A DNA stretch of 45,085 nucleotides from Nitrosomonas sp. GTDB taxonomy: Bacteria; Pseudomonadota; Gammaproteobacteria; Burkholderiales; Nitrosomonadaceae. Position numbers and translations under genes: made by a program. The notes below the pieces were generated by a model. The model was not told the origin of the DNA. It searched no databases and worked only from the letters and a program-made list of their open reading frames with translations. This document shows positions 5,171-45,085 of this stretch, piece by piece. The DNA lies in the NCBI GenBank assembly GCA_008015565.1, contig SSFV01000090.1, forward strand, positions 1 to 45,085, written 5' to 3'. Numbering within the stretch: the first letter of the stretch is position 1; each line of letters begins with the position of its first letter.

Positions 5171-5279
5171 GCCATTCTCCTTATTGAGGTTTTTTTAAAT
5201 TAAATTGGATACGATTATAAGCACAACCGTTTGGTAACTCCAGCGATAGCCTTAAATGCCTTACTAAATCAAAAGCATG

Positions 5280-6392
5280 TTATAGCCATTTTTTTCTTCT
5301 GAAAAAAATTAATAAACCGGCGCTGATTACGATAAAAACAACCCAAATCATAGGGTAAGCCCAACGCCATTTTAATTCCGGCATGTACTCAAAGTTCATG
5401 CCATAAATTCCGGCAATAAATGTCAAAGGTATAAATATTGACGCAAATATCGTTAGAATTTTCATCGTTTCATTGAGTTTATTGCTGATGCTCGTGAGAT
5501 AGATATCGTGCATGGCTGAGATTCTCTCGCGGAAAGACTCGAGCGAATCCGTCACACGCAGTACGTGATCATAAACATCGCCGTAGTATCGTAAAGTTTT
5601 TTCGTGGAATAGAGGATTGTCACTTCGTAAAATTGTGGCCAGTAACTCCCGTAACGGAGCAATATTTCGCTTCATGGAAATCAGGCCGCGGCGGATTTGC
5701 TGCAGTGTTTGCAACATTTCTTTATTGGAATTGAATAAGATATGCTCTTCGAGTGGATCCATGATCTCATCCAGATTATCTTCTACAACGAAATACTCAT
5801 CCACGATTGTATCGAGAATGACATAAGCCAGATAATCACTGCCAAATTGCCGTAAACGGGCATTATGGTTTTGCAGATGGTGATAAATGGGATTAAATGT
5901 ATCGTCAGCTTTTTCTTTAAAAGTGATGACGTAATTGGTTAATAACAGGATGCTGATTTGCTCGTATCGTAAACTAAAATTTTTTTCCTGATTAAGATCG
6001 ATACCTTTGATGACCATGTAAAGAAAGTCTTCATACACTTCCAGCTTTGGACGTTGATGCGTGCTTAGTATGTCTTCCAGCACGAGGGGATGAATGTTTA
6101 ATTCCTGCCCAATAGCCGCCACGATATGAGTATCATTTAAGCCATCGACATTTACCCAGGTAATTACACCGGTTTTTTTGAGATGCCTTAATTCGCCAAT
6201 TGAATTGATTTCGTGCCGCACCAATGTATCCGCATTATACTGCGTGACTGAAATTTTACTTTTTGATTCATGCCGTTCTCCGACATGTATTAATGTTCCT
6301 GGAGGAAGCCCGGATTTATCGGATGCGCTGCTTAATTTTTTCTTGTTTATCTGCTGATACGAACGAAGCGTAGGCGGTAAGTTGGAATGCAT
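5280..6392 (-). CDS. corA: CorA-family magnesium/cobalt channel
   Basis: CorA proteins are pentameric inner-membrane channels for Mg2+ and Co2+. The 370-residue length, the large soluble N-terminal region with long helices (EDNLDEIMDPLEEHI...), the two C-terminal membrane helices (about 315-335 and 342-362) and the signature YGMN (near residue 335) with a following acidic loop (FEYMPEL) all fit. The C-terminus ends in basic residues (RRKKWL) on the cytoplasmic side. It sits alone between the kinase gene and a long upstream region, about 110 bases from the kinase start, so it probably has its own promoter. Ion preference cannot be read from sequence. Confidence 0.95.
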   Translation of the reverse strand: MHSNLPPTLRSYQQINKKKLSSASDKSGLPPGTLIHVGERHESKSKISVTQYNADTLVRHEINSIGELRHLKKTGVITWVNVDGLNDTHIVAAIGQELNIHPLVLEDILSTHQRPKLEVYEDFLYMVIKGIDLNQEKNFSLRYEQISILLLTNYVITFKEKADDTFNPIYHHLQNHNARLRQFGSDYLAYVILDTIVDEYFVVEDNLDEIMDPLEEHILFNSNKEMLQTLQQIRRGLISMKRNIAPLRELLATILRSDNPLFHEKTLRYYGDVYDHVLRVTDSLESFRERISAMHDIYLTSISNKLNETMKILTIFASIFIPLTFIAGIYGMNFEYMPELKWRWAYPMIWVVFIVISAGLLIFFRRKKWL

Positions 6393-6557
6393 GTTAAGCC
6401 CACCTGGTGATTGATTAAAGCGCTCATTTTAAGAGCATTAAAGAAGTTTTGGTGGATTGCAGCAAAAAATTATGGAAGAGCAACGTAAAACCAGGCTGTG
6501 AATTGCCTAGGATATTGCTGCCAAGTGCACGGGGAGATATTTAAAGTGGCGTATCTT

Positions 6558-6728
6558 TCAGATGTTCTGAGGCTCGATTGGCTTTCTCATATTTTCTTTT
6601 TGTAAAGAACACCAATCCTGCCAAACTTTACGAGCTTCCTCTACATTACTGAATGTCCACAGCACTACACCATCTTCTGTCATTAAGGTTGCCATTTTAT
6701 TAGGCCATTCTTTAATTACACAATACAT
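6558..6728 (-). CDS. Small hypothetical protein (56 aa), not in ORF track
   Basis: An ORF with an ATG at 6728 and a TGA at 6558 encodes MYCVIKEWPNKMATLMTEDG..., 56 residues. An AAGGA ribosome binding site lies six bases before the ATG. The product is acidic and basic mixed, with a Trp-rich pattern (EWPN, VLWTF, VWQDW) and no signal peptide or membrane helix. The pattern of a short antiparallel sheet followed by a helix (VEEARKVWQDW) resembles small stand-alone proteins common in Nitrosomonas-type genomes, but I cannot name a family. It lies in the 520-base gap between corA and the DUF2780 lipoprotein gene. Confidence 0.6.
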   Translation of the reverse strand: MYCVIKEWPNKMATLMTEDGVVLWTFSNVEEARKVWQDWCSLQKENMRKPIEPQNI

Positions 6729-6912
6729 CGTTTTTCCTTTTAAGTTTTAATATGATCGCAAGCTTAAGCGTCAAATATGAAAATATGATGACAGCGATGT
6801 GAAGAGTTTAAAATAAATGCATGTATGATATAGCTTTAGTTTGGCATTAATGGCATGCTAATAAGCGAAGCATCGGGTTTTAATAGCTTTTCATCTTTTA
6901 CAAGGAGTTATT

Positions 6913-7470
6913 ATGAATAAAATCAGTTATATTCAATTGAGTTCTATAATAATGTTGGTAGCAATTGCAGGATGTGCGGCTACAAGCGATCCAGCCAATC
7001 CATTAGGCGCCGCAGAGAGTAGTGCGCAAATGATGGGGTCTGGGGCTGCCGGCGCAGCGACAGCTGCAGCAACATCGGCTAGTATGAATCAAATAGGCTT
7101 GGTCGATATTCTGGCGCATCGTCTGGGCGTGTCACCACAGCAAGCTTTAGGGGGAGCCGGGGCAATTTTTCAGGCAGCACAAGGAAATATGGATCCACAA
7201 GCGTTTGCCACATTGTCAAAGTCTATTCCCGGAATGGATACGATGCTTGGAGCTGCCCCTAATTTAGCAGGTGCTGGCGGTTTATCTTCTTTGATGGGCG
7301 GAGCAGATAGTACTTTAGGCAGCGTAGCGGCACTAGCTGGATCATTCCAGCAATTGGATCTTTCCCCCGATATGGTGGGTAAATTTATTCCCGTCATCAC
7401 TGACTATGTAAAGCAAGCCAGCGGACAGGCAACAGCGAACCTTTTTCAATCAGCACTGGGTGTGCGGTGA
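6913..7470 (+). CDS. DUF2780-type lipoprotein
   Basis: The 185-residue product begins with a lipoprotein signal peptide ending in the lipobox IAGC (Cys21). An Ala/Gly-rich linker follows, then a domain from about residue 60 (LVDILAHRLGVSPQQALGGAGAIFQAAQGNM...) that matches DUF2780 (VcgC/VcgE type) proteins as I remember them. The repeated Gly-Ala-rich helical segments and the final helix (FIPVITDYVKQASGQ) are typical. An AAGGAG ribosome binding site stands directly before the ATG. It is predicted to be a membrane-anchored envelope protein. No function is established for the family. It is a single gene with a hairpin about 90 bases downstream. Confidence 0.85.
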   Translation: MNKISYIQLSSIIMLVAIAGCAATSDPANPLGAAESSAQMMGSGAAGAATAAATSASMNQIGLVDILAHRLGVSPQQALGGAGAIFQAAQGNMDPQAFATLSKSIPGMDTMLGAAPNLAGAGGLSSLMGGADSTLGSVAALAGSFQQLDLSPDMVGKFIPVITDYVKQASGQATANLFQSALGVR

Positions 7471-14990: not shown

Positions 14991-15989
14991 TCATCGAGGA
15001 TCATCATAGCGCGTGTGCTGCAAGCGCGGGGTATGCGGATTTAAAACTGTAGAGAATTGTTTTTTACTAAAAATGACACGTGCCTGCGGATCCGGGTCGA
15101 TAGCTTTGAGCGTTTCGATGACAGCAACTCTTGGAGCCAGTCCGGCATAATTAGCAACTTGAATGGATAATCCGGGACGGGCATTCAGTTCAATAATCAT
15201 TGGACCTTGATCCCTGTCCAGTACAAGATCTGCGCCTAAATAACCCAAGCCGGTCATTTCATAGCAAGCTGCAGCCAATTGCAGTAATTTATCCCAGTGA
15301 GGAATAAATAGCTCCGAGAATGTCTTGCGTGTATCCGGATGGTGCAAAACCGTTTCACCAAATTGAACAGCGTGTAATGCACCGCCCGTTCCAATATCAA
15401 TGCCCACGCCTACTGCGCCTTGATGTAGATTGGCTTTGCCATCGGATGCATGAGTCGTCAATCGTAGCATCGCCATGATGGGGTAGCCACGGAAAACGAT
15501 GATGCGGATATCGGGAATGCCTTCATAACTGTAGCCGGAGAAAACCGGATCCAGTTGTATCAACGATTCAATCATGACACTGTCAGGCTTACCGCCGAGA
15601 CTGTGAAGACCGCTTAGAATATTGGAAACGTGGCGTTCTATATCTACTAACTGTATGGCATCCCCACTGGGTTTAAAATATAGATTGTGATCGTGTTCGA
15701 CGATTACCAGTATGCCCTTGCCACCGCTGCCTTTTACAGGTTTGATAACAAACTGGTTATAAGGTCTCAGTACTTCTTGCAACAGTTTGACATCATGCTG
15801 GTAATGTAATGTGCCGAGCAGTTTGGGCACGGTGATACCAGCTTGTTGTGCCAGCAGCTTGGTTTTTAATTTATCATCGACAAGCGGGTATAAATGACGC
15901 GGGTTATACCGGGATATCAGGCCAAAGTTCCTTTGGTTCATCCCGATGATGCCAAAGCTTCTGAGCTTTTTAGGACTTGCTAGAAACAT
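14991..15989 (-). CDS. Alpha-L-glutamate ligase-related ATP-grasp protein
   Basis: This ATP-grasp enzyme of 332 residues is related to RimK-type glutamate ligases. I chose ATG 15989 (MFLASPKKLRSFGI), which has an AAGG-type ribosome binding site. The track start adds 21 residues read from inside the upstream gene. The ATP-grasp features are QFVIKPVKGSGGKGILVI (P-loop-like lysine and glycine loop), DIRIIVFRGYPIMAMLRL, and metal ligands in the segment LGADLVLDRDQGPMIIELNARPGL. It overlaps the 7TM gene by 20 bases and is the last gene of a three-gene unit. The family is known to travel with the 7TM transglutaminase-like protein and the zinc-protease-like protein. Its substrate is not established. 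Confidence 0.9.
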   Translation of the reverse strand: MFLASPKKLRSFGIIGMNQRNFGLISRYNPRHLYPLVDDKLKTKLLAQQAGITVPKLLGTLHYQHDVKLLQEVLRPYNQFVIKPVKGSGGKGILVIVEHDHNLYFKPSGDAIQLVDIERHVSNILSGLHSLGGKPDSVMIESLIQLDPVFSGYSYEGIPDIRIIVFRGYPIMAMLRLTTHASDGKANLHQGAVGVGIDIGTGGALHAVQFGETVLHHPDTRKTFSELFIPHWDKLLQLAAACYEMTGLGYLGADLVLDRDQGPMIIELNARPGLSIQVANYAGLAPRVAVIETLKAIDPDPQARVIFSKKQFSTVLNPHTPRLQHTRYDDPR

Positions 15990-17517
15990 TTCGCCTTTCC
16001 AGAGAATGAAATCGATACAGTTCGGATAACCGGTAGCCTGTATACTGACCAAGCAACAGGATGAATGCCAGATTAACCAGCATCAATTCAGGAAAATTAA
16101 AACTCAGATATTCTATGGTGCGATTGCTCATGAACAGATAGGCAATGACAGCCGTCAGCAGGCTGCCACCACCCTGAATCAGCACCTCCCTGGGACCGTC
16201 TTCTTCCCAAAGCACCGACATGCGTTCAATAGTCCATGACAGAATGATCATCGGGAAGAAAGTCACTGTCAGAGCTTGATCGAGCCCAAGTTTGTTACTA
16301 ATGATACTGATGCTTGCCATAATGACGATTACCACGATGATAACGGCCGATATTCGCGCTACAAACAATAGATTCAGGCGTGATAAATACGACCGGATTA
16401 ATAGCCCGGTACCGACTACGGTGAGAAAGATGATAATGCCGGTAAGTAATGTTGTCTGTATCAAGGCTAATGCAATCAAAATAGGCATGAACGTGCCGGA
16501 AGTGCGCAGGCCGATCAGCAAGCGCATAATGACCACAATCAGTGCACCGATCGGTAATAGCAAAATCATTTTAAATGCATTTTGCTGCTCAATGGGCAAA
16601 CTATAAATAGAGAAATCGATAATGCCGGCTTGTTTACTCATGCTGTCGCGCACTACCAGATTTCTCGTGGATTGAAGGTTTTTGATGATGGAAAACGAAA
16701 TTTGGGAATTTTTGCCGCCCACTACATCCAGCAAAGATTCATCGCCTCGCTGCCAGATCAAGAAATTTTCCGGTTTGCCATGTAAGCCGGTGTTTTGATT
16801 AAACAGTAACCACTGTCCGCCAATATACACTTCGACGAAGTTGGTCAATGATTGTCTGCGCCGGCCATCTTCTAAATAAAGGCCGCGCACGATGCGTGCG
16901 CTGATGCCTTCCATTGCTAGCAAGTTAATGATCAAGTGCGTTTTGTAATCGTCACTGGAGCGTTCACTAAGCAATAGGCTTTGATTCTGGCTAGGCACTT
17001 TGGAATTTAGCGCAGTAATCAATTCGCGCGTAAATATTTTCGTGTTTGCTGACCGGTTGCGTACTTGATCCAGCAATGTAATCGCTGCGGTATTAAGTAC
17101 TTCGTCAAATTCCGGCTTTTCCGGTTCGGATGGAAGATCGGCTGCAATGGAAGAAGTGATTTGATCCGTTTCATACAAACTTAAACGGTAATAAGCGGTT
17201 TGTGCGCCTTTTACAGCCCTTTTACTCCACTGCGCACGGCGCCCCGAAGGGGAAGCGAGCTCACTGAAACCGTAATCCGGGGAAGCAAAATCTTCTTTGA
17301 TGATAACGATGTCCGGAGTTTCGGGCGGTAACGCAAACGACACCACCACTGGACCGCCGCGTGCACTAAAATCGATCTTGGCTTCGATGTTCCAAACCGG
17401 TGTTTTGTCATCCGGTAATAATGGAAATCCCAAAATGAAGTGTTTGTATAAGATCAAACCTACGCCGAGCCCCATGATCAAAATAACCAGAAGGTAGAAC
17501 CGGAGATTTGCATGCAT
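15970..17517 (-). CDS. Inactive transglutaminase domain fused to seven transmembrane helices
   Basis: The 515-residue protein has an N-terminal helix (about 8-28), a periplasmic region of about 240 residues containing a transglutaminase-like fold (FTRELITALNSK...KTHLIINLLAMEGISARIVRGLYLEDGRR...NFVEVYIGGQWLLFNQNTG), and then seven hydrophobic segments from about residue 320 (MILLLPIGALIVVIMRLLIGL...). The Cys normally needed for catalysis is not at its expected place, as is typical of the family (Transglut_i_TM plus 7TM_transglut_C). It shares one base with the upstream stop (TAATG) and overlaps the ligase gene downstream, so the three products are translationally coupled and probably form one envelope system. 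The role is unknown. Confidence 0.92.
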   Translation of the reverse strand: MHANLRFYLLVILIMGLGVGLILYKHFILGFPLLPDDKTPVWNIEAKIDFSARGGPVVVSFALPPETPDIVIIKEDFASPDYGFSELASPSGRRAQWSKRAVKGAQTAYYRLSLYETDQITSSIAADLPSEPEKPEFDEVLNTAAITLLDQVRNRSANTKIFTRELITALNSKVPSQNQSLLLSERSSDDYKTHLIINLLAMEGISARIVRGLYLEDGRRRQSLTNFVEVYIGGQWLLFNQNTGLHGKPENFLIWQRGDESLLDVVGGKNSQISFSIIKNLQSTRNLVVRDSMSKQAGIIDFSIYSLPIEQQNAFKMILLLPIGALIVVIMRLLIGLRTSGTFMPILIALALIQTTLLTGIIIFLTVVGTGLLIRSYLSRLNLLFVARISAVIIVVIVIMASISIISNKLGLDQALTVTFFPMIILSWTIERMSVLWEEDGPREVLIQGGGSLLTAVIAYLFMSNRTIEYLSFNFPELMLVNLAFILLLGQYTGYRLSELYRFHSLERRNVSSKS

Positions 17518-18290
17518 TATTTTTTGCCCGTTGATTCTGAATTGTCAGTTTTTGCGGTGATATATTTTTTACTGACATCTACGATCGCAAGGTCGCTCAA
17601 CAGATTACGTCCGATGAGTACCTGATGATCGAATTTATTGCGATTTTCAAGTGTAAAATCTATTTGTTCATTAATATCCGCGAGCATAACACGTATTCTG
17701 ACAACCGGCCGCCGTTGCGATTCTTTGTCACCGCGCTCTTTGATGCGCACGTGACGACGCAATCGCCGGGTAAGCTCAATTAATTCCCCGCTTTGCGGAT
17801 GATGCATTTTGAATTTCACAAAAGGTTTTCCGTCTCGCTCAAATTCAACTATATCCATCGCATGTAATGAAGACGTACGGGCACCGGTATCGATGCGCGC
17901 ACTGAATGCCAATCCCGGTGGATCGAGATGCACATACTCGAGTTCTCCTAACAGTGTTTTGGTTTCAGTGTTAACTGGAGCATCCCGGTTGGAGTCATCG
18001 GCATTGGGCAACTCACATGAACAATTATTAGGGGCGATTTGGCTGGAATCCTCGTTATTTTCGAGAATTTTATCGGACTCATTTTTTTCCAAAGATTTCT
18101 TTTGTTCTACCAATTCGGCAAATAACGTAACCAGTTCGGATTCTCTGGCACTAATACGTGCTTCGCGTTCAGCAAGTGTTTGTTCATGATTATCGCAGGC
18201 TGAAAATAAAAGCAATGCAAAAAGGCTGAAAAAGGATTTGTAATTGATAGATGTAGATGTTAATGATGAATGCAGCACACTAATTCTCAT
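17517..18290 (-). CDS. Lipoprotein with retropepsin-like 'ATP-dependent zinc protease' (RimK/LysX-associated) domain
   Basis: The 257-residue product starts with a signal peptide ending in a lipobox-like LFSAC (about residue 32), followed by a heptad-rich coiled segment (LAEREARISARESELVTLFAELVEQKKSLEK) and a Ser/Asn linker. From about residue 110 there is a DUF785-type aspartic-protease-like domain with the active-site triad-like ARIDTGARTSSLHA, the matching strand HQVLIGRNLLSDLAIVDVSKKYI, and an arginine-rich middle (TRRLRRHVRIKERG). The database label 'zinc protease' is historical. The DTGA motif points to a retropepsin fold. It is first in the trio, overlapping the 7TM gene by one base. 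Confidence 0.88.
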   Translation of the reverse strand: MRISVLHSSLTSTSINYKSFFSLFALLLFSACDNHEQTLAEREARISARESELVTLFAELVEQKKSLEKNESDKILENNEDSSQIAPNNCSCELPNADDSNRDAPVNTETKTLLGELEYVHLDPPGLAFSARIDTGARTSSLHAMDIVEFERDGKPFVKFKMHHPQSGELIELTRRLRRHVRIKERGDKESQRRPVVRIRVMLADINEQIDFTLENRNKFDHQVLIGRNLLSDLAIVDVSKKYITAKTDNSESTGKK

Positions 18291-33799: not shown

Positions 33800-34327
33800 T
33801 TAAGAAGGGTTGTTGAAACGGTGAAGTACCGGATAGATGTGTTCATGCCAAATTTTGCGTTTATCGTTAATAGATAAGCGAGCGTTTGCTGGGCTGGTGG
33901 AGGGCAGACGCAAAAATTGTATGGCATTAAGATTGCAGATAGGCAGTACGTGGCGTGTAAAGTAACGCTCTGCTGTGCCGCCGTTGAAAAATACATGACT
34001 AATGTTTTTATGGCTGGAGAACAGTGACGCGAAATCATTGATAATATAATTGCCGGAACTAATCTGAGTATCCAAACTGCCGGTACGTTCGCACGATTTG
34101 AATACATCCCAGAGCGCGAGATGCGAAGAATGTAAAGCGGTTATTTTCTCCTGGTAAGAGGCATCGGTTTGAATAAGTAGTAATGGCGCTATGATTGGCC
34201 AGAATGCATTGCGTTGATGCGCATAATATTGATTGGCTGCAAGTGATGCCTCACCAGGCATGCTGCCGAGAATCAGGATTTTTGCGTGATCGCCGGCAAT
34301 AGGAGCAAAACTATGGATGATCGCCAT
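33800..34327 (-). CDS. DNA-deoxyinosine (hypoxanthine-DNA) glycosylase, UDG family 6 type
   Basis: The enzyme removes hypoxanthine, the deamination product of adenine, from DNA. I chose ATG 34327 (MAIIHSFAPIAG) over the TTG three codons earlier. The 175-residue protein shows the family patterns ILILGSMPGEASLAANQYYAHQRNAFW (active-site and nucleotide-flipping region) and FLRLPSTSPANA (motif 2). It is the last gene of the tight minus-strand run, 21 bases after the phosphoglycerate-mutase-like gene. Confidence 0.88.
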   Translation of the reverse strand: MAIIHSFAPIAGDHAKILILGSMPGEASLAANQYYAHQRNAFWPIIAPLLLIQTDASYQEKITALHSSHLALWDVFKSCERTGSLDTQISSGNYIINDFASLFSSHKNISHVFFNGGTAERYFTRHVLPICNLNAIQFLRLPSTSPANARLSINDKRKIWHEHIYPVLHRFNNPS

Positions 34328-34348: not shown

Positions 34349-35086
34349 TCAACTTATCTTATCAACATAATAATTCCGGATCACAGTACTGTGTTGATCT
34401 AGTTCGTAGACCACAGGCCGGCCGGTAGCCAGTCTGCATTTCATTGCTTGCCTAGGAGTAAGGTTATTTAATAGCATCATCAGTACACGTAAGGTATTGC
34501 GATGAGAAACAATCAAAATACGCTTCCCTTTCCGGATTTCCGGCTGAATCGCTTCTTCCCAATAAGGCTTAACGCGCATCAGTGTTTGCTGAATACTTTC
34601 TCCCGCTGGCAATTCATTTTTATCGATGCTGGCATAATTCAATTGATTTCCCGGAAAACGCGGGTCGGCGGGATCGAGGTATGGCGGCGTAGCGTCAAAT
34701 TTGATTTGACACCCTAAAATAGGCCAGATGCCGAATCTTTTGATGGCTGGCCAACGTTCCATTCCCTCCAGTGCACCGTAATGGCGTTCATTTAACCGCC
34801 AATGTGTAATGATAGGAACATCCAAGCGCATGGCAGACAATACAAGGTGTGCAGTGGTAGCCGCCCGTTGTAACGAAGAAGAAAAACATAGATCGAACGT
34901 GATACCGGCTTGTTTTAGCAAATAGGCAGCTTGCTTGGCTTCTTCCTCACCTTTTGGACTTAATGGTACGTCGCTCCAGCCGGTAAATTTTTTGTCGCGA
35001 TTCCAAATACTTTGTCCGTGGCGCAGCAAAACGAGCTTCGTGATTTGCAGTTGCGGATGCGCCGAGGCTGGAATGGCTCTTAGCAT
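34349..35086 (-). CDS. 2,3-BPG-dependent phosphoglycerate mutase-like (GpmA-like) histidine phosphatase
   Basis: The 245-residue protein belongs to the histidine-phosphatase superfamily, with LVLLRHGQSIWNRDKKFTGWSDVPLSPKGEEEA holding the phospho-His and second half ILIVSHRNTLRVL holding the other His (HGN is changed to HRN). I chose ATG 35086, which shares its A with the stop of the desaturase gene (TGATG), over the track start 25 codons earlier. GpmA has a WRRSYD segment that helps bind 2,3-bisphosphoglycerate. Here the same place reads ILGCQIKFD. It could thus be a phosphatase of another substrate rather than a glycolytic mutase. The tight operon with lipid-type genes supports that doubt. 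Confidence 0.85.
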   Translation of the reverse strand: MLRAIPASAHPQLQITKLVLLRHGQSIWNRDKKFTGWSDVPLSPKGEEEAKQAAYLLKQAGITFDLCFSSSLQRAATTAHLVLSAMRLDVPIITHWRLNERHYGALEGMERWPAIKRFGIWPILGCQIKFDATPPYLDPADPRFPGNQLNYASIDKNELPAGESIQQTLMRVKPYWEEAIQPEIRKGKRILIVSHRNTLRVLMMLLNNLTPRQAMKCRLATGRPVVYELDQHSTVIRNYYVDKIS

Positions 35087-36159
35087 CAACGATTGCCAGG
35101 CTGCTGCGGATTCCTGGATGCTTGCGAGGATTCCTGCCAGATTTGTTTCAAGGCAGGCCACAAGCCGCTTCGCAACGTTTTGATATACTGAGAATTGTCG
35201 ATCAAGCCTTTTACCAGGCGGCGCTGCGCTCTACCTAGATTGTGATACGGCATGCTCATGAAAAGATGATGTGTTGCATGATAGCGTAATCCAACCGGCG
35301 CCCATAACGGCGTAATCAAGAAATTGCCGGGTATATTGATAGAATCGAGATATTGCTCAGCCAATGTCATTTTATGATTGCCGGGATTGCGATAGGCATG
35401 GGCTGCCAATGTGCGTAATGAATTGAGTGTAAAAACGGTTACTGCGGTCAAGTACCACAATACCAGCAACGAATAGGGAAATACATCGACTGCCACTAAC
35501 CCAATAACGCTCATACCGAACAAGCATGCGGCCATTTCTTGCTGGCGCCAATTCAGATCGTTGCGAATGGCATCCTCGGCACGCCGGTAAGCCGGATCGA
35601 TTGTCAGTGATGAAGCGCGTTCCCACACTAGCTTGCGCAGTGGCGGAATCAAGTACGACAACGGTGTCAACAGAACGAATCGCACTACGAGAAAGATGGG
35701 TATCAGCCATGACAACAACACGTAAACGATTATTTCAGCGGGTCTACGCGTTGCAAATGGAAGATATTCGCCGTCGGCGCTGGTGCCATATACATCCGGT
35801 TTGTGGTGGTCGTTGTGTACGCCATCATAGGTAAACGACGGAATCATAAATGGAATCCCGCAGATGATATTCCATACCAAACGAAAGTTTTTGAACGTGC
35901 CTTTCTTTAAGTGCGCCAGTTCGTGTACGAAAATCGCCGAGCGGTACAATGCCAGCACTGCAACGATAAATCCACCCAATTGCCATAGCGAGAACAATGG
36001 AGAAAATAGTGCTGTAAAAAAAGCTGCCCAACCCAATGTAATATGAAAAGTAAAATCTATCCAATAAATCCACGGATTGGGGGTCATCAAGTCGCGTACC
36101 AAATGATGCGCTTCGCGTAACGGAAATTCTTTGACGTAAATCTCTTTTTGTTCAATCAT
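35086..36159 (-). CDS. Membrane fatty acid desaturase
   Basis: A di-iron integral membrane desaturase/hydroxylase of 357 residues. The three His boxes are HELAH (near residue 79), HNDHH (near 115) and HATHH (near 300), with hydrophobic pairs near residues 36-70 and 150-175 and further helices at 205-240. It acts on acyl chains in the membrane and needs an electron donor that is not encoded here. It starts 11 bases after the HIT gene and overlaps the phosphoglycerate-mutase-like gene by one base, so it is part of a co-translated run. The chain position it acts on cannot be told. Confidence 0.9.
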   Translation of the reverse strand: MIEQKEIYVKEFPLREAHHLVRDLMTPNPWIYWIDFTFHITLGWAAFFTALFSPLFSLWQLGGFIVAVLALYRSAIFVHELAHLKKGTFKNFRLVWNIICGIPFMIPSFTYDGVHNDHHKPDVYGTSADGEYLPFATRRPAEIIVYVLLSWLIPIFLVVRFVLLTPLSYLIPPLRKLVWERASSLTIDPAYRRAEDAIRNDLNWRQQEMAACLFGMSVIGLVAVDVFPYSLLVLWYLTAVTVFTLNSLRTLAAHAYRNPGNHKMTLAEQYLDSINIPGNFLITPLWAPVGLRYHATHHLFMSMPYHNLGRAQRRLVKGLIDNSQYIKTLRSGLWPALKQIWQESSQASRNPQQPGNR

Positions 36160-36170
36160 ACGGCGTCTCG

Positions 36171-36638
36171 CTAAGCTTTGGATTTAGGCCAACAAGATTG
36201 GATATGTTTCATAATCAACAGATTAACGGCAACATCGGTTTTGTTGACTTGCCCTAAATTCGGCATTGCCGGCCAGCCAGTATCGGTAAATTCTTGATTT
36301 GCAAACTGTGTGGGCTGGGCATATCGCGGAATTACGTGAAAATGCACATCCGGATCGACCATCATCAGCATCAAGTAATTGATTTTGTCATAGTGAAACG
36401 CCTGCGCCAACGCCACTTCGATATGCTGGGTGACTTCATGCAATTCTGTAAAACTTGCCGGACTCAATCCGGAAAAAGCTTGTGCAGGCTCATGAGCGGC
36501 CAAAACCAGTGCACCGAGGGTCGCCTGAGCCGGACGTAATAACACGGACCAGTAGCGGTAGCGCCGGATGATGGTTTGCGGTGCGCCGAATTTGCGCATC
36601 GTGGCATTGAAATCTGCGGGTGTCGAATGCATGGTCAT
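36171..36638 (-). CDS. HIT-family nucleotide-binding protein
   Basis: HIT proteins hydrolyse or transfer nucleotide phosphates through a His triad. In this 155-residue protein the triad is DVHFHVIPRY (HxHxh with Pro), preceded by LGALVLAAHEPAQAFSGLSPASFTELHEV, the family's strand-helix region. The start at 36638 lies six bases after the nucleotidyltransferase stop. The context, beside a nucleotidyltransferase, suggests turnover of its nucleotide-linked product, but this is inference. Confidence 0.85.
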   Translation of the reverse strand: MTMHSTPADFNATMRKFGAPQTIIRRYRYWSVLLRPAQATLGALVLAAHEPAQAFSGLSPASFTELHEVTQHIEVALAQAFHYDKINYLMLMMVDPDVHFHVIPRYAQPTQFANQEFTDTGWPAMPNLGQVNKTDVAVNLLIMKHIQSCWPKSKA

Positions 36639-36644
36639 AGCCGG

Positions 36645-37406
36645 TTATTCGCTAAAAATAATTCCGGCGCGCGCCAAATCTTCAATGAAATCAATTTCGC
36701 ACCACCGCAATCCTTTAATCGAGCAGGATTTAACCAAATGTTGTTTTGCCAGATTATCGACAATTGATAAATACCACGATTTCAATTCAGCCGGATGACG
36801 AAGCGCCAATTCCACCGCGTGCCGGAAAAGGTATGCGCCTTGTGAGCGAAAGTATATCAAACCGATCGATTCGGCATCGACTTGGTGTGGCGGTATAATT
36901 TTGCTGACTTGCTTTACCCAGCCCTCGGTATCCAGTTGCACTTTCATATCATCCGCATCGTAATTGTCTTTAAAGTCCACACTGAGTGTAATGGGTGCAA
37001 ATTCCGAATTCAAGACTTTACTTAGGAGAGCAGACTCGACCACGGTATCACCGTTCAACAGTAGAAAATCGTCATCCATTTCCGCACGGGCTATCCAACA
37101 ACTGGCCAAATTGTCGGCGACCTCATAAAAAGGATTGAACAAGGTCTTGATAGTGGGATAACCGGCATATCGCTGTAGCAGCAGGGATTCAATCAAACCG
37201 ACCTGGAACCCGCTAATAATAGTAATATTTTCCACACCAACCGCCAATAACGCGTCGATTTGCCATGTTAATACCGGCTTTCCTGAAACCGGCAATAGGC
37301 ACTTCGGTGTGCTTTCGGTCAGCGGCAGTAGCCGACGCCCTTGCCCGGCGCTGAGTATGATGGCTTTAACAGGTTTTGTATTGTTTGTATTATTCGGCAT
37401 ATCCAT
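36645..37406 (-). CDS. Sugar/choline-phosphate nucleotidyltransferase (LicC-like)
   Basis: The 253-residue protein has the nucleotidyltransferase signature AIILSAGQGRRLLPLTESTPKCLLPVSGKPVLTWQIDAL, with the Gly-Arg loop and Lys that bind the NTP. The metal-binding Asp is in FLLLNGDTVVE, and the second metal ligand is in CEIDFIEDLARAG. The set of motifs (NPFYEVADNLASCWIARAEMDDDFLLLNGD) matches the phosphocholine cytidylyltransferase family as I remember it. It would form a CDP- or other NDP-linked alcohol or sugar in the cytoplasm. It is translated just before the HIT protein and 16 bases after the cysteine desulfurase gene. Confidence 0.85.
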   Translation of the reverse strand: MDMPNNTNNTKPVKAIILSAGQGRRLLPLTESTPKCLLPVSGKPVLTWQIDALLAVGVENITIISGFQVGLIESLLLQRYAGYPTIKTLFNPFYEVADNLASCWIARAEMDDDFLLLNGDTVVESALLSKVLNSEFAPITLSVDFKDNYDADDMKVQLDTEGWVKQVSKIIPPHQVDAESIGLIYFRSQGAYLFRHAVELALRHPAELKSWYLSIVDNLAKQHLVKSCSIKGLRWCEIDFIEDLARAGIIFSE

Positions 37407-37422
37407 TGATTTTGGGAAGTTT

Positions 37423-38580
37423 TTAAAGGCAAAGGCTGCTCGTGCGTTTTAATTCTGTAACGATATGCTGTGTGGTGCCGAGAAAATTTTCGATTTCTCC
37501 CATCGTGTTACTGCTTCCTAAACTAACGCGCACCGCGCAGCGCGCGAGCATCGGATCCACTTGCATGGCTGCCAGCACATGACTTTGTCCGGGATTTACA
37601 CTGGAGCAGGCAGCGCCGGCAGCTACAGCAAAACCGGCTTTGTCAAGCTTTACTACCAAAGTATCGCCTTCGATATCCGGCAGTGCAAAATAACAGGTAT
37701 TGGGTATGCGAGCAGCTTGTTTGCCAAAAATGACAGCACCCATGCCAAGCAAACCAGCTTCCAAACGATCACGCAAGCGTGAGACTTGCTGCGCTGATTC
37801 TGCCAAGCGCAGAGCAGCGAGTTCGCAAGCGACACCAAAACCTACGATAGCGGGTACATTTTCGGTTCCTGAACGCAAACCATTTTCGTGGCCACCTCCA
37901 TAAATCAACGGCTTCAATAATAAGCGTTTGTCTACAATCAACGCTGCTGCGCCTTTAGGGCCATAAATCTTATGTGCGGATAACGTCATGGCATGCACTT
38001 TGAGTGTCTGAAAATTCACCGCGATTTTTCCTAAACCTTGAATCGCATCGGTATGCACGTACGCACCGTGAGCGCGCGCCATTTCAGCAATTTTCGCAAC
38101 ATCTTGTATGACACCGGTTTCATTATTGGCTAGCATGACGGAAATCAATCCCGGTTTGTGCGCATGCATGGCTGCGCTGGCAGCGGCCAAATCAACTTGA
38201 CCATGCGCGTCAGTCGCTAATTGATGCAATACCCAGGCATCGCAATTACGGCGCGATAGCGCTTGCGCTGGTTTTAAAATGCAAGGATGTTCAATGGCGC
38301 TGATGAACAGATTGCCCGGTTTCAAACTATCCGCGGCCCCGCGAATAAATAAATTGTTGGCTTCCGATCCGCCGCTGGTAAAAATCACTTGCACCGGTTG
38401 CACGCCGACCGCTTCAGCAACTTGTTTGCGCGCTTGATCAATCGCACGTCGCGCATTGATGCCATAGGTGTGACGGCTGGATGCATTGCCAAATTGCTGC
38501 TGGAAATAGGGTAGCATGGCTTCGATTACTGCGTGATCGGCGGGAGTGGTGGCATTGTGGTCGAAGTAAGCGATTTCCAT
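37423..38580 (-). CDS. Cysteine desulfurase (NifS/IscS-type class V aminotransferase)
   Basis: A PLP enzyme of 385 residues that takes sulfur from cysteine for Fe-S clusters or thio-cofactors. I chose ATG 38580 (MEIAYFDHNATTPAD), the family's normal start, over the track start 13 codons upstream. The internal aldimine Lys204 lies in TLSAHKIYGPKG next to His203, GGSEANNLFIRG binds PLP, and the catalytic Cys325 lies in AAGAACSSVNPGQSHVL. No iscU, iscA or iscR lies beside it, so it is a second, stand-alone enzyme rather than part of an isc operon. It heads the six-gene run. Confidence 0.93.
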   Translation of the reverse strand: MEIAYFDHNATTPADHAVIEAMLPYFQQQFGNASSRHTYGINARRAIDQARKQVAEAVGVQPVQVIFTSGGSEANNLFIRGAADSLKPGNLFISAIEHPCILKPAQALSRRNCDAWVLHQLATDAHGQVDLAAASAAMHAHKPGLISVMLANNETGVIQDVAKIAEMARAHGAYVHTDAIQGLGKIAVNFQTLKVHAMTLSAHKIYGPKGAAALIVDKRLLLKPLIYGGGHENGLRSGTENVPAIVGFGVACELAALRLAESAQQVSRLRDRLEAGLLGMGAVIFGKQAARIPNTCYFALPDIEGDTLVVKLDKAGFAVAAGAACSSVNPGQSHVLAAMQVDPMLARCAVRVSLGSSNTMGEIENFLGTTQHIVTELKRTSSLCL

Positions 38581-39411: not shown

Positions 39412-39651
39412 TCATGGCCGCAGCCTTGCATTGATTTGCCGCAATATTTTAACGCGATGACCAAAGCGTGCGAGTAGCCAATAAAGCGGATAACCGAAAT
39501 AGTGGAGAAATCCCAATATGATGATAAATCGGGTTCCCGGACCACCTGCCAAATTTCCAAGCGGTAAGATTTTGCCAACCAGCGTGATTTTTGCCAATCT
39601 TGAGATTTCAAGACCTTGCAAGTCATAATTTTTTTTCAGAATTTTTCTCAT
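39412..39651 (-). CDS. Small basic hypothetical protein coupled to the HAD gene
   Basis: The 79-residue ORF starts within ATGA shared with the stop of the HAD gene, a common sign of translational coupling. The product is basic (MRKILKKN..., RFGHRVKILRQINARLRP) with one hydrophobic segment (FIIILGFLHYFGYPLYWLLARF) that could sit in the membrane. I recognise no family. The overlapping 95-codon ORF in another frame is judged a shadow. Confidence 0.45.
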   Translation of the reverse strand: MRKILKKNYDLQGLEISRLAKITLVGKILPLGNLAGGPGTRFIIILGFLHYFGYPLYWLLARFGHRVKILRQINARLRP

Positions 39652-41702
39652 TCATTGATCCTCTGCCGTATATGGTTGATAAAATAACGAATTCTCAATA
39701 ATGGATTAAATCTGAGTTGGGCTGGCGGCTGGTTCCAAAGCGAAAGAGATGCTTTACCAGTGCCAGCCACCGGTTTCTTATTACCTTGAAAATCATCGAG
39801 ATGATGGCGGTATTTGATGTTTGCCACTTCCCGGGCATGGGGAAATGCGAGTTTACTGAGAAATAGAAAGTTGATCCACGGTTTCCAATCATCAAACGAA
39901 AAATTCAATAGCGCCGCTGCCGCGGCAAATTTTCCGGCAGAATCCAGTATTCCCTGTTGCAGCGGCGCAAAATACCGGTCTTGTTCCTGCTCTGCCAACC
40001 CGCTTGCATCATCGGTGCGACGAAACTCCAGCGCGTAACCCTGTTCGGTCAATCGATATCCATTCAGTGTCGGATGGGGAGCCCGGCAAGCTTCTTCGAA
40101 AATATCCTGCGCATAATATAGTGTGCTTCCTGCCAAATCGAAACGTTGGCTATCGAACATAATTCCCCGGATGGAGTTTTTTCTGCCTTCAGGGTAGGGG
40201 ATTGCGCGGATTGCCCCAAACAGCATCCCAAAGCAATTCGGACAATCAGGCCGGTGAGCAATGGCTTCAAATAAAAAACGTTGGATGGTGCCAAGCCATC
40301 CGATGTCGACAATGGCTATATTTTCGTGGGCAAATAAGCCAGCTTCGGTGAAATAACGTTGCATGGCTTCATTCGCTGCTTTGGTTTGGCGTTTCACTTC
40401 ATCCTGGAAAGATTGGTCCAATAATAGCGCATCAAAATTTTCACTGTGCTCAGCACGGTAACCTTCATGCGCTGGGCTTAAGCAAGTATCGGCCGTTAAT
40501 CCATGGGCTGCGAGAAGCGGCAAAAATTTTTCAGCGTCAAGGCTGAAAATCCGGCAAATATCGCGGAAATCGCGATTACCTCTCGGTGTTAAAGCGATAT
40601 TAGCATTCGTTTTAGTCAAGCCTTGATGGGCGCAGGATGCACCAGCAAGCGCCATTCTGCTGACATACAGGTATTCCGTTTGCGGTAAATCCCCGGCAGG
40701 ATAAAGGGTAGCCACGGTTTTATCCCAATACTGCTTGAACATCCAACCTTCCCGCGACAGGAAAAAAATCTTGCTTATTCCTTTTTCTTGGCACAATTTG
40801 CGGATCTGCTGCAGAAATATTCCGATCAGCGGTCCGAGAAAGTTATGGCCCTCGACGTACAATTCCGAAACCGTCCGGTTTTCGCTTTCCAAAGGCGCCA
40901 TTAATTGCTGCAAAGCTCTGCCTCGTAGCAGCGGTTTGATTTCACTGTAGTGATAGTAACGTTTGACCAGAGCCTTGCGCTGATCTTCACGCGGATCATG
41001 AATGATCAAGGCATCAATGCCGGCTTCTGCTGCACGAAGTCCGTCAGCAACCGGATTGTCGCCAATATGCAGCCAAGATTGGCAGGAAATAGAAAATTTT
41101 TCTGCAATCATGGGATAGGCATTTCCGGAAGCTTTTGCCAAGAAAGTATCGGCTGAAGAAACGACTTGTTCGATGAATCCGGTCAAACCGGCTTGTTCCA
41201 GCAATTTTTGTAAGTGGGAAGAGGGTAGATAAATATCGGAAATTACAAAAATTCTTTTTCCAGTTTGTGCAAGCTCTTTCATCCACTCCACCAGTGCTTG
41301 CCTGGGAACAAGCATGGTGCTTTCCATGGCCAGTTCGTAGTCAGTGACTTGCTGTAATAGGGATTCATTAAATTTGGATTGAAAGATATTTTCAAGAAGC
41401 TCCTGCATAAACCGCGGATAACAGGCTTCATGATCGTCGAAATTTTTTGCAGTTTCCTGGCGGTGTCTTTGTTCGATAGCATCCCGCAATTGCTGAATAT
41501 TTCGCCAGCCTTTGGATATTCCTTGCTGTGCAGCGAGGTCTGAAATGTATCGCGCGACGGGCAGTTTTACTAAATCGGGATCGTGAATCCGGCGAATAAA
41601 CAACGTATCGAACAGATCGAATGAAATGACTTGCTTGTTTTTAGCCTTCTTTTTTCCGGCTTTGATCAAGGATGCCAACGAATAATAGGTTGGAAATTTC
41701 AT
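39648..41702 (-). CDS. HAD-like hydrolase domain protein of a surface-polysaccharide cluster
   Basis: The large protein (684 residues from ATG 41702; the track uses a TTG that overlaps the upstream stop) begins with a HAD-type domain. This holds nucleophile motif FDLFDTLFIRR (about residue 29), FVISDIYLPSSHL (motif 2) and HIGDNPVADGLRAAEAG (motif 4). The C-terminal two thirds (from about residue 270: FFLSREGWMFKQYW..., NIAIVDIGWLGTIQRFLFEAI) resembles a region found in HAD proteins of capsule and O-antigen loci. I cannot name its activity. It follows a GT2 glycosyltransferase with overlapping stop and start, which supports a role in glycan or glycoconjugate assembly. Confidence 0.75.
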   Translation of the reverse strand: MKFPTYYSLASLIKAGKKKAKNKQVISFDLFDTLFIRRIHDPDLVKLPVARYISDLAAQQGISKGWRNIQQLRDAIEQRHRQETAKNFDDHEACYPRFMQELLENIFQSKFNESLLQQVTDYELAMESTMLVPRQALVEWMKELAQTGKRIFVISDIYLPSSHLQKLLEQAGLTGFIEQVVSSADTFLAKASGNAYPMIAEKFSISCQSWLHIGDNPVADGLRAAEAGIDALIIHDPREDQRKALVKRYYHYSEIKPLLRGRALQQLMAPLESENRTVSELYVEGHNFLGPLIGIFLQQIRKLCQEKGISKIFFLSREGWMFKQYWDKTVATLYPAGDLPQTEYLYVSRMALAGASCAHQGLTKTNANIALTPRGNRDFRDICRIFSLDAEKFLPLLAAHGLTADTCLSPAHEGYRAEHSENFDALLLDQSFQDEVKRQTKAANEAMQRYFTEAGLFAHENIAIVDIGWLGTIQRFLFEAIAHRPDCPNCFGMLFGAIRAIPYPEGRKNSIRGIMFDSQRFDLAGSTLYYAQDIFEEACRAPHPTLNGYRLTEQGYALEFRRTDDASGLAEQEQDRYFAPLQQGILDSAGKFAAAAALLNFSFDDWKPWINFLFLSKLAFPHAREVANIKYRHHLDDFQGNKKPVAGTGKASLSLWNQPPAQLRFNPLLRIRYFINHIRQRINE

Positions 41703-41710
41703 GGTATGAA

Positions 41711-42655
41711 TCAATTTTTACCCAAGATGTTGCCGTATTTCCTGGAAAACCAGTTTTTTAAGCTTCTGAACAATTCATTTAAAGCGGGCCGAACCCCTTG
41801 CGGTTTTGGAGGCTCGAGTGCTGTTTTCACATCATGGAGCTCATCACCCAACTCTATTAAACGCTGCGCACCGGTTATGATGTCCGTGCGATAGGCTTCA
41901 GGAATTCTCGCCATCATGTATTTCGAAATCAATGCCTGATCCTGCAATCTGCCAGTAATGGCCGCTTCGTTGAGCGTGTTGCCGGAATGAATGCGGTAAT
42001 AAAGCAGCTTGTCGCTGTGCAGGTAGTGCACGCTGTTTGGGAAAGCGAGCATCATTCTGAAGATGTAATCATAATCGTGCAAGTACCTGAGTGGACTGAA
42101 TTTACCCACAACTCGCGCGGCATGTGCGGTCATAAAAAGATTCGATGTGGTAACCATGAAATTGCCTTTGAGAAAACCGGCGTATAGATCCTGGCAGGTA
42201 AAATACCAAGTTCTGTTTTTTGAATGCCAGGTATTCCAGCCAAACTTAGGATCGGTAAATTCCGCACCATCATCGGAAATGGGGATGACATCCGTGAAAA
42301 CACACTGTGCATCGTTTTTCTCAACAAAATTCACCAAGCGTTCAAGACGGTCAAGCGTATAAACGTCATCGGAATTGAGAATGGCGATGTATTGCCCTTT
42401 AGCCAGTGATAAACCTCTGTTCAACGTATTGTAGGCATCCTGATTGTGCTGATAATAATAACTGAGCCGCGGATCATTATAAGCTTTGACGATGCCGCCC
42501 GTTTTATCGGTTGAACCATCGTCCACGACAATTAATTCAAGATCCGCGAGCGTCTGCTGTAACACACTGTCGACCGCAGCCGCGATAAATCGTTCATGAT
42601 TATAAGCGGGAATGATGACGCTAATCAGCGGTTGCTTGATTTCTACCGTTGACAT
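41711..42655 (-). CDS. Glycosyltransferase family 2
   Basis: A GT-A fold glycosyltransferase of 314 residues. The N-terminal LISVIIPAYNHERFIAAAVDSVLQQTLADLELIVVDDGSTDKT binds the nucleotide-sugar. The DxD-type motif is ILNSDDVYTLDRLERL, and RYLHDYDYIFRMML supplies the acceptor-side acidic residues. No membrane helices are visible, so it probably works on the cytoplasmic face. The stop overlaps the alternative start of the HAD gene. The donor and acceptor sugars are unknown. Confidence 0.92.
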   Translation of the reverse strand: MSTVEIKQPLISVIIPAYNHERFIAAAVDSVLQQTLADLELIVVDDGSTDKTGGIVKAYNDPRLSYYYQHNQDAYNTLNRGLSLAKGQYIAILNSDDVYTLDRLERLVNFVEKNDAQCVFTDVIPISDDGAEFTDPKFGWNTWHSKNRTWYFTCQDLYAGFLKGNFMVTTSNLFMTAHAARVVGKFSPLRYLHDYDYIFRMMLAFPNSVHYLHSDKLLYYRIHSGNTLNEAAITGRLQDQALISKYMMARIPEAYRTDIITGAQRLIELGDELHDVKTALEPPKPQGVRPALNELFRSLKNWFSRKYGNILGKN

Positions 42656-44001: not shown

Positions 44002-45085
44002 ATGCCTGCCGTTGAGATGCCGTGGCGGAAATTAGTCGAAAGTATCAAACGTGGTAACTGTATTCTCATACTTGGGCCTCAAGTCAGTTTTGATCCAAAC
44101 AATTCTGATTATTTGCCGCTAACCACCGCACTGGCTCATCGCCTAGCTGACCATGCAAAGCTAAAAGAATCGAAAGATCTGATAAACCGGAATGATTTAG
44201 CGCATGTTGCGCAACTTTTCAAACAAGCAACGGATCGCTATGAGCTGGAAATAGCCGCCTCCGATTTTTACAGCGCTTATCAGGCTGTCACGACTGATTT
44301 TCATAGAGACTTGGCGGCACTGCCGTTTACGCTGTGCATCAATGCCGCGCCCGATGATTTGTTCAGCAATTCTGTGATCGAGGCGGGGAAAAAATCTGCG
44401 CAGGATTATTATAATTTCAGGCGACATCGACCGCCGATTGCCAGTCAACCCAATTCCCGCCAGCCTTATATTTATAATTTATATGGCCATTACAGCGATG
44501 CAGAGTCTTTGGTGCTGACGGAAGATGACCTGCTGGAATTTTTAGCCAATATCATCAAAGCCAGTCCTGAATTACCGCCGTTGATCCGTAGTCAAGTAGC
44601 CGATCTAAGCAAAAATTTCTTGTTTATCGGCTTTGGCTTCCGTTCATGGCATCAGCGCATCTTGCTGCATGCTTTAAAAGCGCAGAATCGCAGCTATGAG
44701 TCATTGGCAGTCGAAGACAAGCAATTTTTCGACCTGCCCGATTGTTCACAGACAGCCGTGTTTTATAGTCACCTGCACAAAATCAAATTCGAATGCTACT
44801 CCTGGCTGGATTTTGCCAGAGAATTACGGCAGGCCTATGGAGCTTCGGTGAAAACAGCGATCCCTACCCAGCAAGTGATGACGGATGCGCCCAAGGTTTT
44901 TTTATGTTATGCCAGCGAAGATCGCGGTCAAGTGGGACAGCTTTGTTTAAAATTACGAAACCTCGGCATCGAGCCTTGGCAGGACAAGCAAAATTTACGT
45001 GCAGGCGACAACTGGGACCGGCAGCTCGTGCATGTGATCAATCAACAAGTCAATTACGTCATTGTGGTGCAAACGCCTGCCATGA
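44002..45085 (+). CDS. SIR2-like/TIR fusion protein, cut by the window end
   Basis: The ORF is open to the last base, so it is missing from the track; 361 residues are visible. Residues about 19-225 are SIR2_2-like: a beta-strand ILILGPQVSF where active members have GAGxS, then CINAAPDDLF, NLYGHYSDAESLVLTEDDL and NFLFIGFGFRSWHQRILLHAL. The expected catalytic His (KLHG) is Tyr161 (NLYG), and the glycine loop is GPQVS, so NAD+ hydrolysis by this half is doubtful. Residues from about 297 form a TIR domain (KVFLCYASEDRGQVGQLCLKLRNLGIEPWQDKQNLRAGDNWDRQL). Its catalytic Glu would lie beyond the window. TIR and SIR2 domains both use NAD+ in bacterial antiviral defence. The fusion and its downstream partners are the main unknown here. 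Confidence 0.85.
   Translation, partial: MPAVEMPWRKLVESIKRGNCILILGPQVSFDPNNSDYLPLTTALAHRLADHAKLKESKDLINRNDLAHVAQLFKQATDRYELEIAASDFYSAYQAVTTDFHRDLAALPFTLCINAAPDDLFSNSVIEAGKKSAQDYYNFRRHRPPIASQPNSRQPYIYNLYGHYSDAESLVLTEDDLLEFLANIIKASPELPPLIRSQVADLSKNFLFIGFGFRSWHQRILLHALKAQNRSYESLAVEDKQFFDLPDCSQTAVFYSHLHKIKFECYSWLDFARELRQAYGASVKTAIPTQQVMTDAPKVFLCYASEDRGQVGQLCLKLRNLGIEPWQDKQNLRAGDNWDRQLVHVINQQVNYVIVVQTPAM

Follow-up and report, generated by a model that had tools for sequence, protein, structure and literature searches.

A conserved Nitrosomonas gene run with a CpgD-type cytidylyltransferase, predicted to serve ceramide phosphoglycerate synthesis

The window (the whole 45,085-nucleotide stretch of Nitrosomonas sp. 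that was analyzed) carries a run of six genes, all on the minus strand between positions 33800 and 38580, in the order B-C-D-E-F-G (Table 1). The original prediction placed a six-gene run at 34349-38580; the run is real, but that interval covers five of the genes, the sixth ending at 33800. The predicted intergenic distances of 16, 6, 11, -1 and 21 bases were exact, with TGATG forming the one-base overlap, and the family calls were confirmed with Pfam and NCBIfam. This spacing suggests that the genes are translated together, and in a promoter and terminator scan, terminators were not commoner than in shuffled sequence. Polysaccharide genes were also observed near the run.

Table 1. Genes of the run, with window positions and basis of assignment
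Gene	Assignment	Position	Strand	Basis
B	Cysteine desulfurase	37423-38580	-	Pfam Aminotran_5
C	NTP transferase, CpgD-type CTP:phosphoglycerate cytidylyltransferase	36645-37406	-	45% identity to CpgD, residues
D	HIT-family protein, CPG2-cluster type (CC_1157 by gene position)	36171-36638	-	HIT domain, gene linkage
E	FA_desaturase, membrane di-iron desaturase/hydroxylase family	35086-36159	-	Pfam, histidine boxes
F	His_Phos_1/GpmA-like, separate clade, altered clamp	34349-35086	-	Pfam, tree
G	DNA-deoxyinosine (hypoxanthine) glycosylase	33800-34327	-	TIGR04274

B-C-D-E-F were present in the same order and on the same strand in 33/33 Nitrosomonas loci, with varying flanks. As the order was constant while the flanks differed, the grouping is more than chance; gene order, which had been proposed as a check on the prediction, was conserved among relatives.

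For C, the CpgD reference was a Caulobacteraceae protein (locus L113; it starts MQPVKT, ends EAEAV and follows the described R16/K26/D112 numbering) and not the C. crescentus sequence itself. C was 45% identical to this protein over its full length. Catalytic, CTP and glycerate residues were taken from PMC12275187 and PMC13228409, and G12, R16, K26, N90, N110, G111, D112, M147, K161, S170 and W201 are identical in C, while T93 is replaced by Ser102, retaining the hydroxyl. The residues surrounding glycerate (N90, N110, S170, M147, K161) were identical in 8/8 aligned proteins. C is orthologous to CpgD, which in Caulobacter acts as the CTP:phosphoglycerate cytidylyltransferase of CPG2 (ceramide diphosphoglycerate) synthesis; from its sequence, C is predicted to make CDP-glycerate. 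The earlier LicC-like label holds at superfamily level (LicC, 1jyk, was the best PDB sequence match), but the subfamily is CpgD, which implies an activated glycerate and not the activated alcohol, such as choline, that had been suggested. CpgD favours D-2-PG over 3-PG (Km 0.84 vs 10.9 mM), and its authors raise the idea of a dedicated, as yet unidentified phosphoglycerate enzyme (PMC12275187).

D contains a HIT domain (PF01230, above cut-off). In its motif, DVHFHVIPRY, Asp replaces the first histidine of the three, and the second and third, including the His at the nucleophile position, are retained; a PDB sequence search with D returned distant HIT proteins only. Among 80 CpgD loci of named genomes, D was within reach in 66, cerS in 70 and spt in 45. 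D was fused to a CTP_transf_like (TagD-type) cytidylyltransferase in L108 and L112 by domain search, and the same architecture was judged from length and alignment in L110; the gammaproteobacterial fusion adjoins a CDP-glycerol:glycerophosphotransferase. By gene position D is the CPG2 cluster's HIT-family protein, and it is predicted to be a partner of CDP-glycerate synthesis. Mutants of Caulobacter CC_1157, which D matches by gene position, had no high cofitness with the cluster (PMC11324152), and D may for this reason be dispensable.

E matched FA_desaturase (PF00487, E 1.6e-28) and carries the boxes HELAH, HNDHH and YHATHH, the HELxH, HxxHH and HxxHH histidines being invariant in 21 proteins. 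It was found in 113/120 Nitrosomonadaceae genomes. E is fused to a CpgB-like kinase (ceramide kinase) in L084, stands beside CpgB in L117 and L118, and lies within spt clusters in L115 and L116; it was present in 0/80 fetched CpgD loci and was not found next to pathway genes in Nitrosospira or L114. A Nitrosospira gene upstream of E that resembled C (40-42%) was rejected as RmlA, the true C being elsewhere with D and F. No relatives of E were found in the PDB by sequence search, and its structure model was weak (pLDDT 66), with 0 Foldseek matches to the PDB at E < 0.001. E is predicted to act on ceramide. Caulobacter DesA-family CCNA_00202, cited in PMC11324152 as hydroxylating the amide-linked acyl chain of sphingolipids, is comparable at the level of class: it comes from a sphingolipid producer, belongs to the same broad membrane desaturase/hydroxylase class as E and has a similar proposed role. 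E is tied to CpgB through fusion and neighbourhood, unlike CCNA_00202, whose reported position is outside the spt region.

F matched His_Phos_1 (E 9.3e-37), scored 252 bits where the best GpmA equivalog model requires 305, and formed a clade apart from GpmA (support 100/100). R9, H10, S13, N16, T22, G23, R61, E88 and H183 of GpmA are retained, and the catalytic H10, E88, R61 and H183 were present in 33/33 F proteins. In GpmA, R115 and R116 clamp the second anionic group. In 33/33 F proteins, R115 is replaced by Q and R116 by I/L/C/F, a hydrophobic residue; K99 is mostly R, and G184 is K/R/Q. The WRRSYD segment is thus absent as predicted, with Q/I at the R115/R116 positions here, and since this clamp is missing, F was not classed as GpmA. 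A canonical GpmA (249 aa, WRRSYN) is encoded at G000:C36, so that the second phosphoglycerate mutase sought by the original prediction is present; no iPGM (gpmI) was found in this genome. With the gene order conserved as well, neither outcome named as refuting that prediction was observed. Co-occurrence counts for F and C were 99/2/3/16 (Fisher p 4.5e-15, uncorrected for relatedness, the genomes being related and not independent), and 17/0/0/6 in Nitrosospira alone. F neighbours C-D not just in Nitrosomonas but also in g28 and Nitrosospira. From these sequence comparisons, F is predicted to be a phosphoglycerate-specific enzyme of the pathway and a candidate for the missing step raised by the CpgD authors.

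The remaining pathway genes (aasR, cerR, acpR, spt, cerS, cpgA, cpgB and cpgC) were all present in the same genome. An aasR-cerR-acpR-spt cluster, and cerS accompanied by a CC_1153-like gene and by lptF2, lie on contigs G000:C133 and C116; spt scored 570 bits against the NCBIfam SPT cut-off of 500, and cerS was named by tblastn matches and position in CpgD loci. On G000:C37, cpgA (a CDP-OH_P_transf protein) is followed by cpgB::cpgC, a DAGK_cat::CpgC-like fusion of 666 aa, these three being named by homology and position in CpgD loci; lptG2 is also carried. Across the family, spt was found in 117/120 Nitrosomonadaceae genomes. C-D-F are contiguous in Nitrosospira, standing in L229 beside cpgC-cpgB-cpgA-lptG2-lptF2-CC_1153-cerS and in other loci beside part of this set.

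For the ends of the run, B matched Aminotran_5 (E 6.5e-69) and the NifS model (E 8.9e-116, yet under its cut-off), and is NifS/IscS-type. It adjoins C in 33/33 Nitrosomonas loci; B was not found beside C in the scanned Nitrosospira, g28 or Caulobacter-type loci, and no link of B was found outside Nitrosomonas. B is at most co-transcribed with the pathway genes. A phosphonate route, combining a class-V aminotransferase and an NTP transferase (cf. the fused enzyme 6pd1 among PDB matches), was considered and rejected: B is NifS-type and C is CpgD. G scored above the cut-off of TIGR04274 (E 8e-48) and follows F in 19/33 Nitrosomonas loci, which fits the suggestion that the glycosylase is carried along; G is probably a passenger of the run.

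Two activities of F were weighed. F may be a phosphatase and not a mutase, dephosphorylating a phospho-ceramide-phosphoglycerate intermediate in place of phosphoesterase CC_1158, a reading we hold tentatively, at somewhat under even probability. PGP phosphatases perform an analogous step for phosphatidylglycerol. Replacement of the clamp in all F proteins with the phosphotransfer residues intact is consistent with this activity, as are the order in L090, where F and not E follows cpgB-cpgC, next to cpgC, and the lack of a CC_1158 ortholog in N. eutropha (PMC11324152). However, S13, N16, T22 and G23, common to GpmA and F, are retained, and six Nitrosospira genomes without C are also without F; the search covered three of the six, all of which keep cpgB/cpgC, and this ties F to the C step. 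It is similarly possible, though short of an even chance, that F is a dedicated phosphoglycerate mutase or isomerase giving C its preferred 2-phosphoglycerate, apart from glycolytic GpmA. The preference of CpgD for D-2-PG and its authors' idea of a dedicated enzyme (PMC12275187), the co-occurrence of F with C and its position beside C-D argue for this; the missing clamp arginines, a GpmA in the same genome already able to make D-2-PG, and three g26 genomes with F and without C argue against it.

C and its partners would be very unlikely to activate phosphocholine, inositol phosphate or sugar phosphate in order to decorate lipopolysaccharide or capsule: LicC is the best PDB match, E lies downstream of rmlABCD in Nitrosospira and polysaccharide genes are close to the run here, but C is a full-length CpgD ortholog with conserved glycerate contacts, and its companion genes are ceramide genes. 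A chance or purely regulatory cluster of genes with housekeeping tasks (supply of Fe-S, clean-up of nucleotides, glycolysis and general desaturation of fatty acids) would accommodate the desulfurase, the widespread desaturase and HIT families and the DNA repair enzyme G. Against it stand the constant order despite changing flanks, the canonical GpmA elsewhere and, in other genomes, the linkage of each of C, D, E and F to genes for sphingolipids; it was rejected on the linkage evidence as highly improbable.

It is instead very probable that C-D-E-F belong to a pathway of ammonia-oxidizing bacteria for ceramide phosphoglycerate, an anionic sphingolipid of CPG/CPG2 type, a judgement on membership that excludes each enzyme's exact reaction. 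The earlier proposal of a lipid or head-group function over glycolysis is supported for these four genes and not for B. In the pathway, with the substrates of D, E and F and the production of the lipid as we infer them, Spt/AcpR/AasR, CerR and CerS would form (dihydro)ceramide, which E, as a di-iron enzyme of the membrane, would desaturate or hydroxylate, and the CpgB-CpgC fusion would phosphorylate and activate the ceramide. C would convert CTP and phosphoglycerate (probably D-2-PG) to CDP-glycerate, with D working on or policing this step, and CpgA would move phosphoglycerate onto the lipid; F, a remodelled phosphoglycerate-mutase fold, would supply or trim phosphoglycerate. The genes at other loci of the genome would complete the route. 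No sphingolipid measurement in any ammonia oxidizer was found in the literature searched.

The known counterpart is the CPG2 cluster CC_1168-CC_1152 of Caulobacter crescentus (cpgA-D, spt, cerS etc.), in which C corresponds to CpgD (CC_1152) and D by position to CC_1157; homologs of its spt, acpR, cerR, aasR, cerS, cpgA-C, CC_1153, lptF2 and lptG2 are present here. In contrast to that cluster, the Nitrosomonas genes are scattered over several loci, with CpgB and CpgC as one 666-aa protein, and C-D are joined to E, F and B, none of which was found in the Caulobacter-type clusters scanned. The portions of PMC11324152 and PMC9386255 consulted list 13/17 cluster orthologs for N. eutropha in three genomic regions, including CC_1152 and CC_1157 (C and D) when counted from the excluded genes. 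Those portions give no role to a desaturase, GpmA-like protein or desulfurase, and deem CC_1157 probably unrelated. The CPG2 orthologs of N. eutropha were accordingly already published, and, as far as those portions extend, the roles for D, E and F are new here.

It appears to us evenly balanced whether the ammonia-oxidizer family makes an anionic sphingolipid headed by phosphoglycerate, for which most members would have F as a dedicated phosphoglycerate-processing enzyme and D as a HIT protein dedicated to handling CDP-glycerate. Sphingolipids are rare among bacteria, and those of Caulobacter help survival without lipopolysaccharide. If the proposal is true, F would close the gap named by the CpgD authors, and one HIT family (D) would serve the synthesis of CDP-glycerol as well as that of CDP-glycerate, which are products of two cytidylyltransferase types unrelated to each other. 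The linkages name candidates: F for the source or trimming of phosphoglycerate, D for the CC_1157-type HIT role and E for ceramide modification. If the whole ammonia-oxidizing family makes sphingolipids, these lipids would be a core trait of the cell envelope that has had little recognition, in organisms of central importance to the nitrogen cycle.

Six genes, B to G, were located on the minus strand of the window (coordinates are tabulated below), with 16, 6, 11, -1 and 21 bases between successive genes, which bears out the gene run of the original prediction. The interval stated there for the six-gene run (34349-38580) contains B to F, and G falls just beyond its edge. B-C-D-E-F kept the same order on a single strand in 33/33 Nitrosomonas loci, while the flanks varied and G lay downstream of F in only 19; a full GpmA with WRRSYN was found on another contig. 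Thus neither a scrambled order nor the lack of another phosphoglycerate mutase, both held to speak against the prediction, was encountered. No iPGM was found in this genome (assembly ~91% complete). The genus names Nitrosomonas (group g1) and Nitrosospira (group g27) were assigned here from relatedness and genome size. B belongs to the class-V desulfurases of the NifS type and is constant across the Nitrosomonas loci; the B-C linkage was not seen in the other contexts scanned outside that genus.

Coordinates of the gene run, neighbouring window genes and related loci
Feature	Position	Strand	Basis
B, cysteine desulfurase	37423-38580	-	profile search
C, NTP transferase	36645-37406	-	profile search
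D, HIT protein	36171-36638	-	profile search
E, desaturase	35086-36159	-	profile search
F, GpmA-like	34349-35086	-	profile search
G, deoxyinosine glycosylase	33800-34327	-	profile search
SIR2-like/TIR protein	44002-45085	+	PF13289, PF13676
7TM/ATP-grasp pair	14991-18290	-	PF14400/PF14402, PF14397
Surface-sugar group	39648-42655	-	
HIT::TagD-type cytidylyltransferase fusions	L108 9424-10272; L110 9451-10314; L112 9405-10262		
CpgB-like/CpgC-like protein	L209 (G000:C37) 5027-7027		
Partial second C-D-E copy	L050 (G027:C1) ~2771497-2772999		

Elsewhere in the window, a gene running past its end encodes SIR2-like and TIR domains, a combination known from NAD-depleting anti-phage systems. Genes for an inactive-transglutaminase/7TM protein and for a sugar-transfer-associated ATP-grasp protein, together with an unannotated upstream gene of the same direction, apparently form one set. 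Near the run is a surface-sugar gene group, in which a HAD-type hydrolase/large protein overlaps a family 2 glycosyltransferase by 4 bases, with a methyltransferase further out. One Nitrosomonas genome (G027) holds a second, partial C-D-E copy, its C without the N-terminal half and its E cut; no F turned up in G027.

In ceramide diphosphoglycerate synthesis, CpgD (CCNA_01210) serves as CTP:phosphoglycerate cytidylyltransferase (PMC12275187). By sequence comparison C is the ortholog of CpgD, since orthologs of C beyond the family match the CpgD description: a Caulobacteraceae homolog (L113; N-terminus MQPVKT, C-terminus EAEAV; 45% identity to C) has Arg16, Lys26 and Asp112 at exactly the numbers described (PMC12275187). 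Among the contact residues seen in CpgD structures (PMC13228409), G12, R16, N90, N110, G111, M147, K161, S170 and W201 were identical in C, as were K26 and D112; T93 was serine and T88, a backbone contact, alanine. A PDB sequence search with C did not return CpgD by name, and the top match was LicC.

Using C as query, 80 loci were retrieved from named genomes of alpha-, beta- and gammaproteobacteria, with a D homolog in 66, cerS in 70 and spt in 45. Flanked by the lpt genes and cpgA, the D homolog takes the position of CC_1157, which PMC11324152 calls probably unrelated to the pathway, without high cofitness. Two observations speak against that view. D remains with C in Nitrosomonas, Nitrosospira and a further genome group (g28), even where other cluster genes have moved off, and gammaproteobacterial members of this HIT family are fused to a CTP_transf_like domain of the TagD type, adjoining CDP-glycerol:glycerophosphotransferase genes (L108, L112; in L110 the fusion was judged from length and alignment). 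D therefore appears to accompany CDP-glycerol or CDP-glycerate synthesis irrespective of cytidylyltransferase type, and by analogy with HIT chemistry it would hydrolyse the CDP-compound. The three fusion loci themselves resemble a CDP-glycerol system that has its HIT partner built in.

E was present in 113/120 genomes of the family and rare outside it (6 others among 274 genomes of the class). Among those six, E is followed directly by CpgB and CpgC within a full cluster in two (L117, L118), adjoins CpgC and aasR-cerR-acpR-spt in L116, stands beside a CDP-alcohol phosphotransferase and near an spt-like gene in L115, and overlaps a DAGK_cat kinase gene by 4 bases in L119; at L114 no such neighbour was found. 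In G063, of the same family, E is fused to a CpgB-like kinase, with CpgC adjoining. Because of these neighbours and this fusion, E most likely modifies ceramide, by desaturation or hydroxylation, a proposed role like that reported for CCNA_00202 of Caulobacter (cited in PMC11324152).

F forms its own clade, apart from the GpmA proteins of the family (support 100/100). The phosphotransfer residues are fixed in all 33 F proteins, in which K99 is replaced by R or P, R115 by Q, R116 by I/L/C/F and G184 by K/R/Q; the roles of these positions are those known for E. coli GpmA. C/F co-occurrence counts were 99/2/3/16 (120 genomes), with p-values that overstate independence because the genomes are related; 17 Nitrosospira-like genomes carried both and 6 neither, and three genomes of another group (g26) carried F without C. 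C-D-F stand together on one strand in Nitrosospira-like genomes, at L229 beside cpgC-cpgB-cpgA-lptG2-lptF2-CC_1153-cerS, and at L090 F follows cpgB-cpgC. Given the clade separation, the co-occurrence and these linkages, F, a candidate mutase or phosphatase, is most likely an enzyme of the ceramide phosphoglycerate pathway. The study of CpgD suggests that an as yet unidentified enzyme may be dedicated to producing phosphoglycerate (PMC12275187).

The pathway's remaining genes lie elsewhere in the genome: aasR, cerR, acyl carrier protein and spt are consecutive on contig C133 (Spt scoring above the curated NCBIfam cut-off); a GNAT-type CerS, a CC_1153-like nucleotidyltransferase and an LptF2-like permease are on C116; and C37 carries an LptG2-like permease, a CDP-alcohol phosphotransferase (CpgA) and a single 666-aa protein joining a CpgB-like ceramide kinase to a CpgC-like domain. 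The last two are separate adjoining genes in g26 and most Nitrosospira-like genomes searched. Spt of this type was found in 117/120 genomes of the family. For N. eutropha, 13/17 cluster orthologs are already published (PMC11324152); four genes are named there as missing and CC_1152 and CC_1157 are among the remaining 13, which makes it probable that C and D are listed. The organism is predicted to make a sphingolipid of the ceramide phosphoglycerate type.
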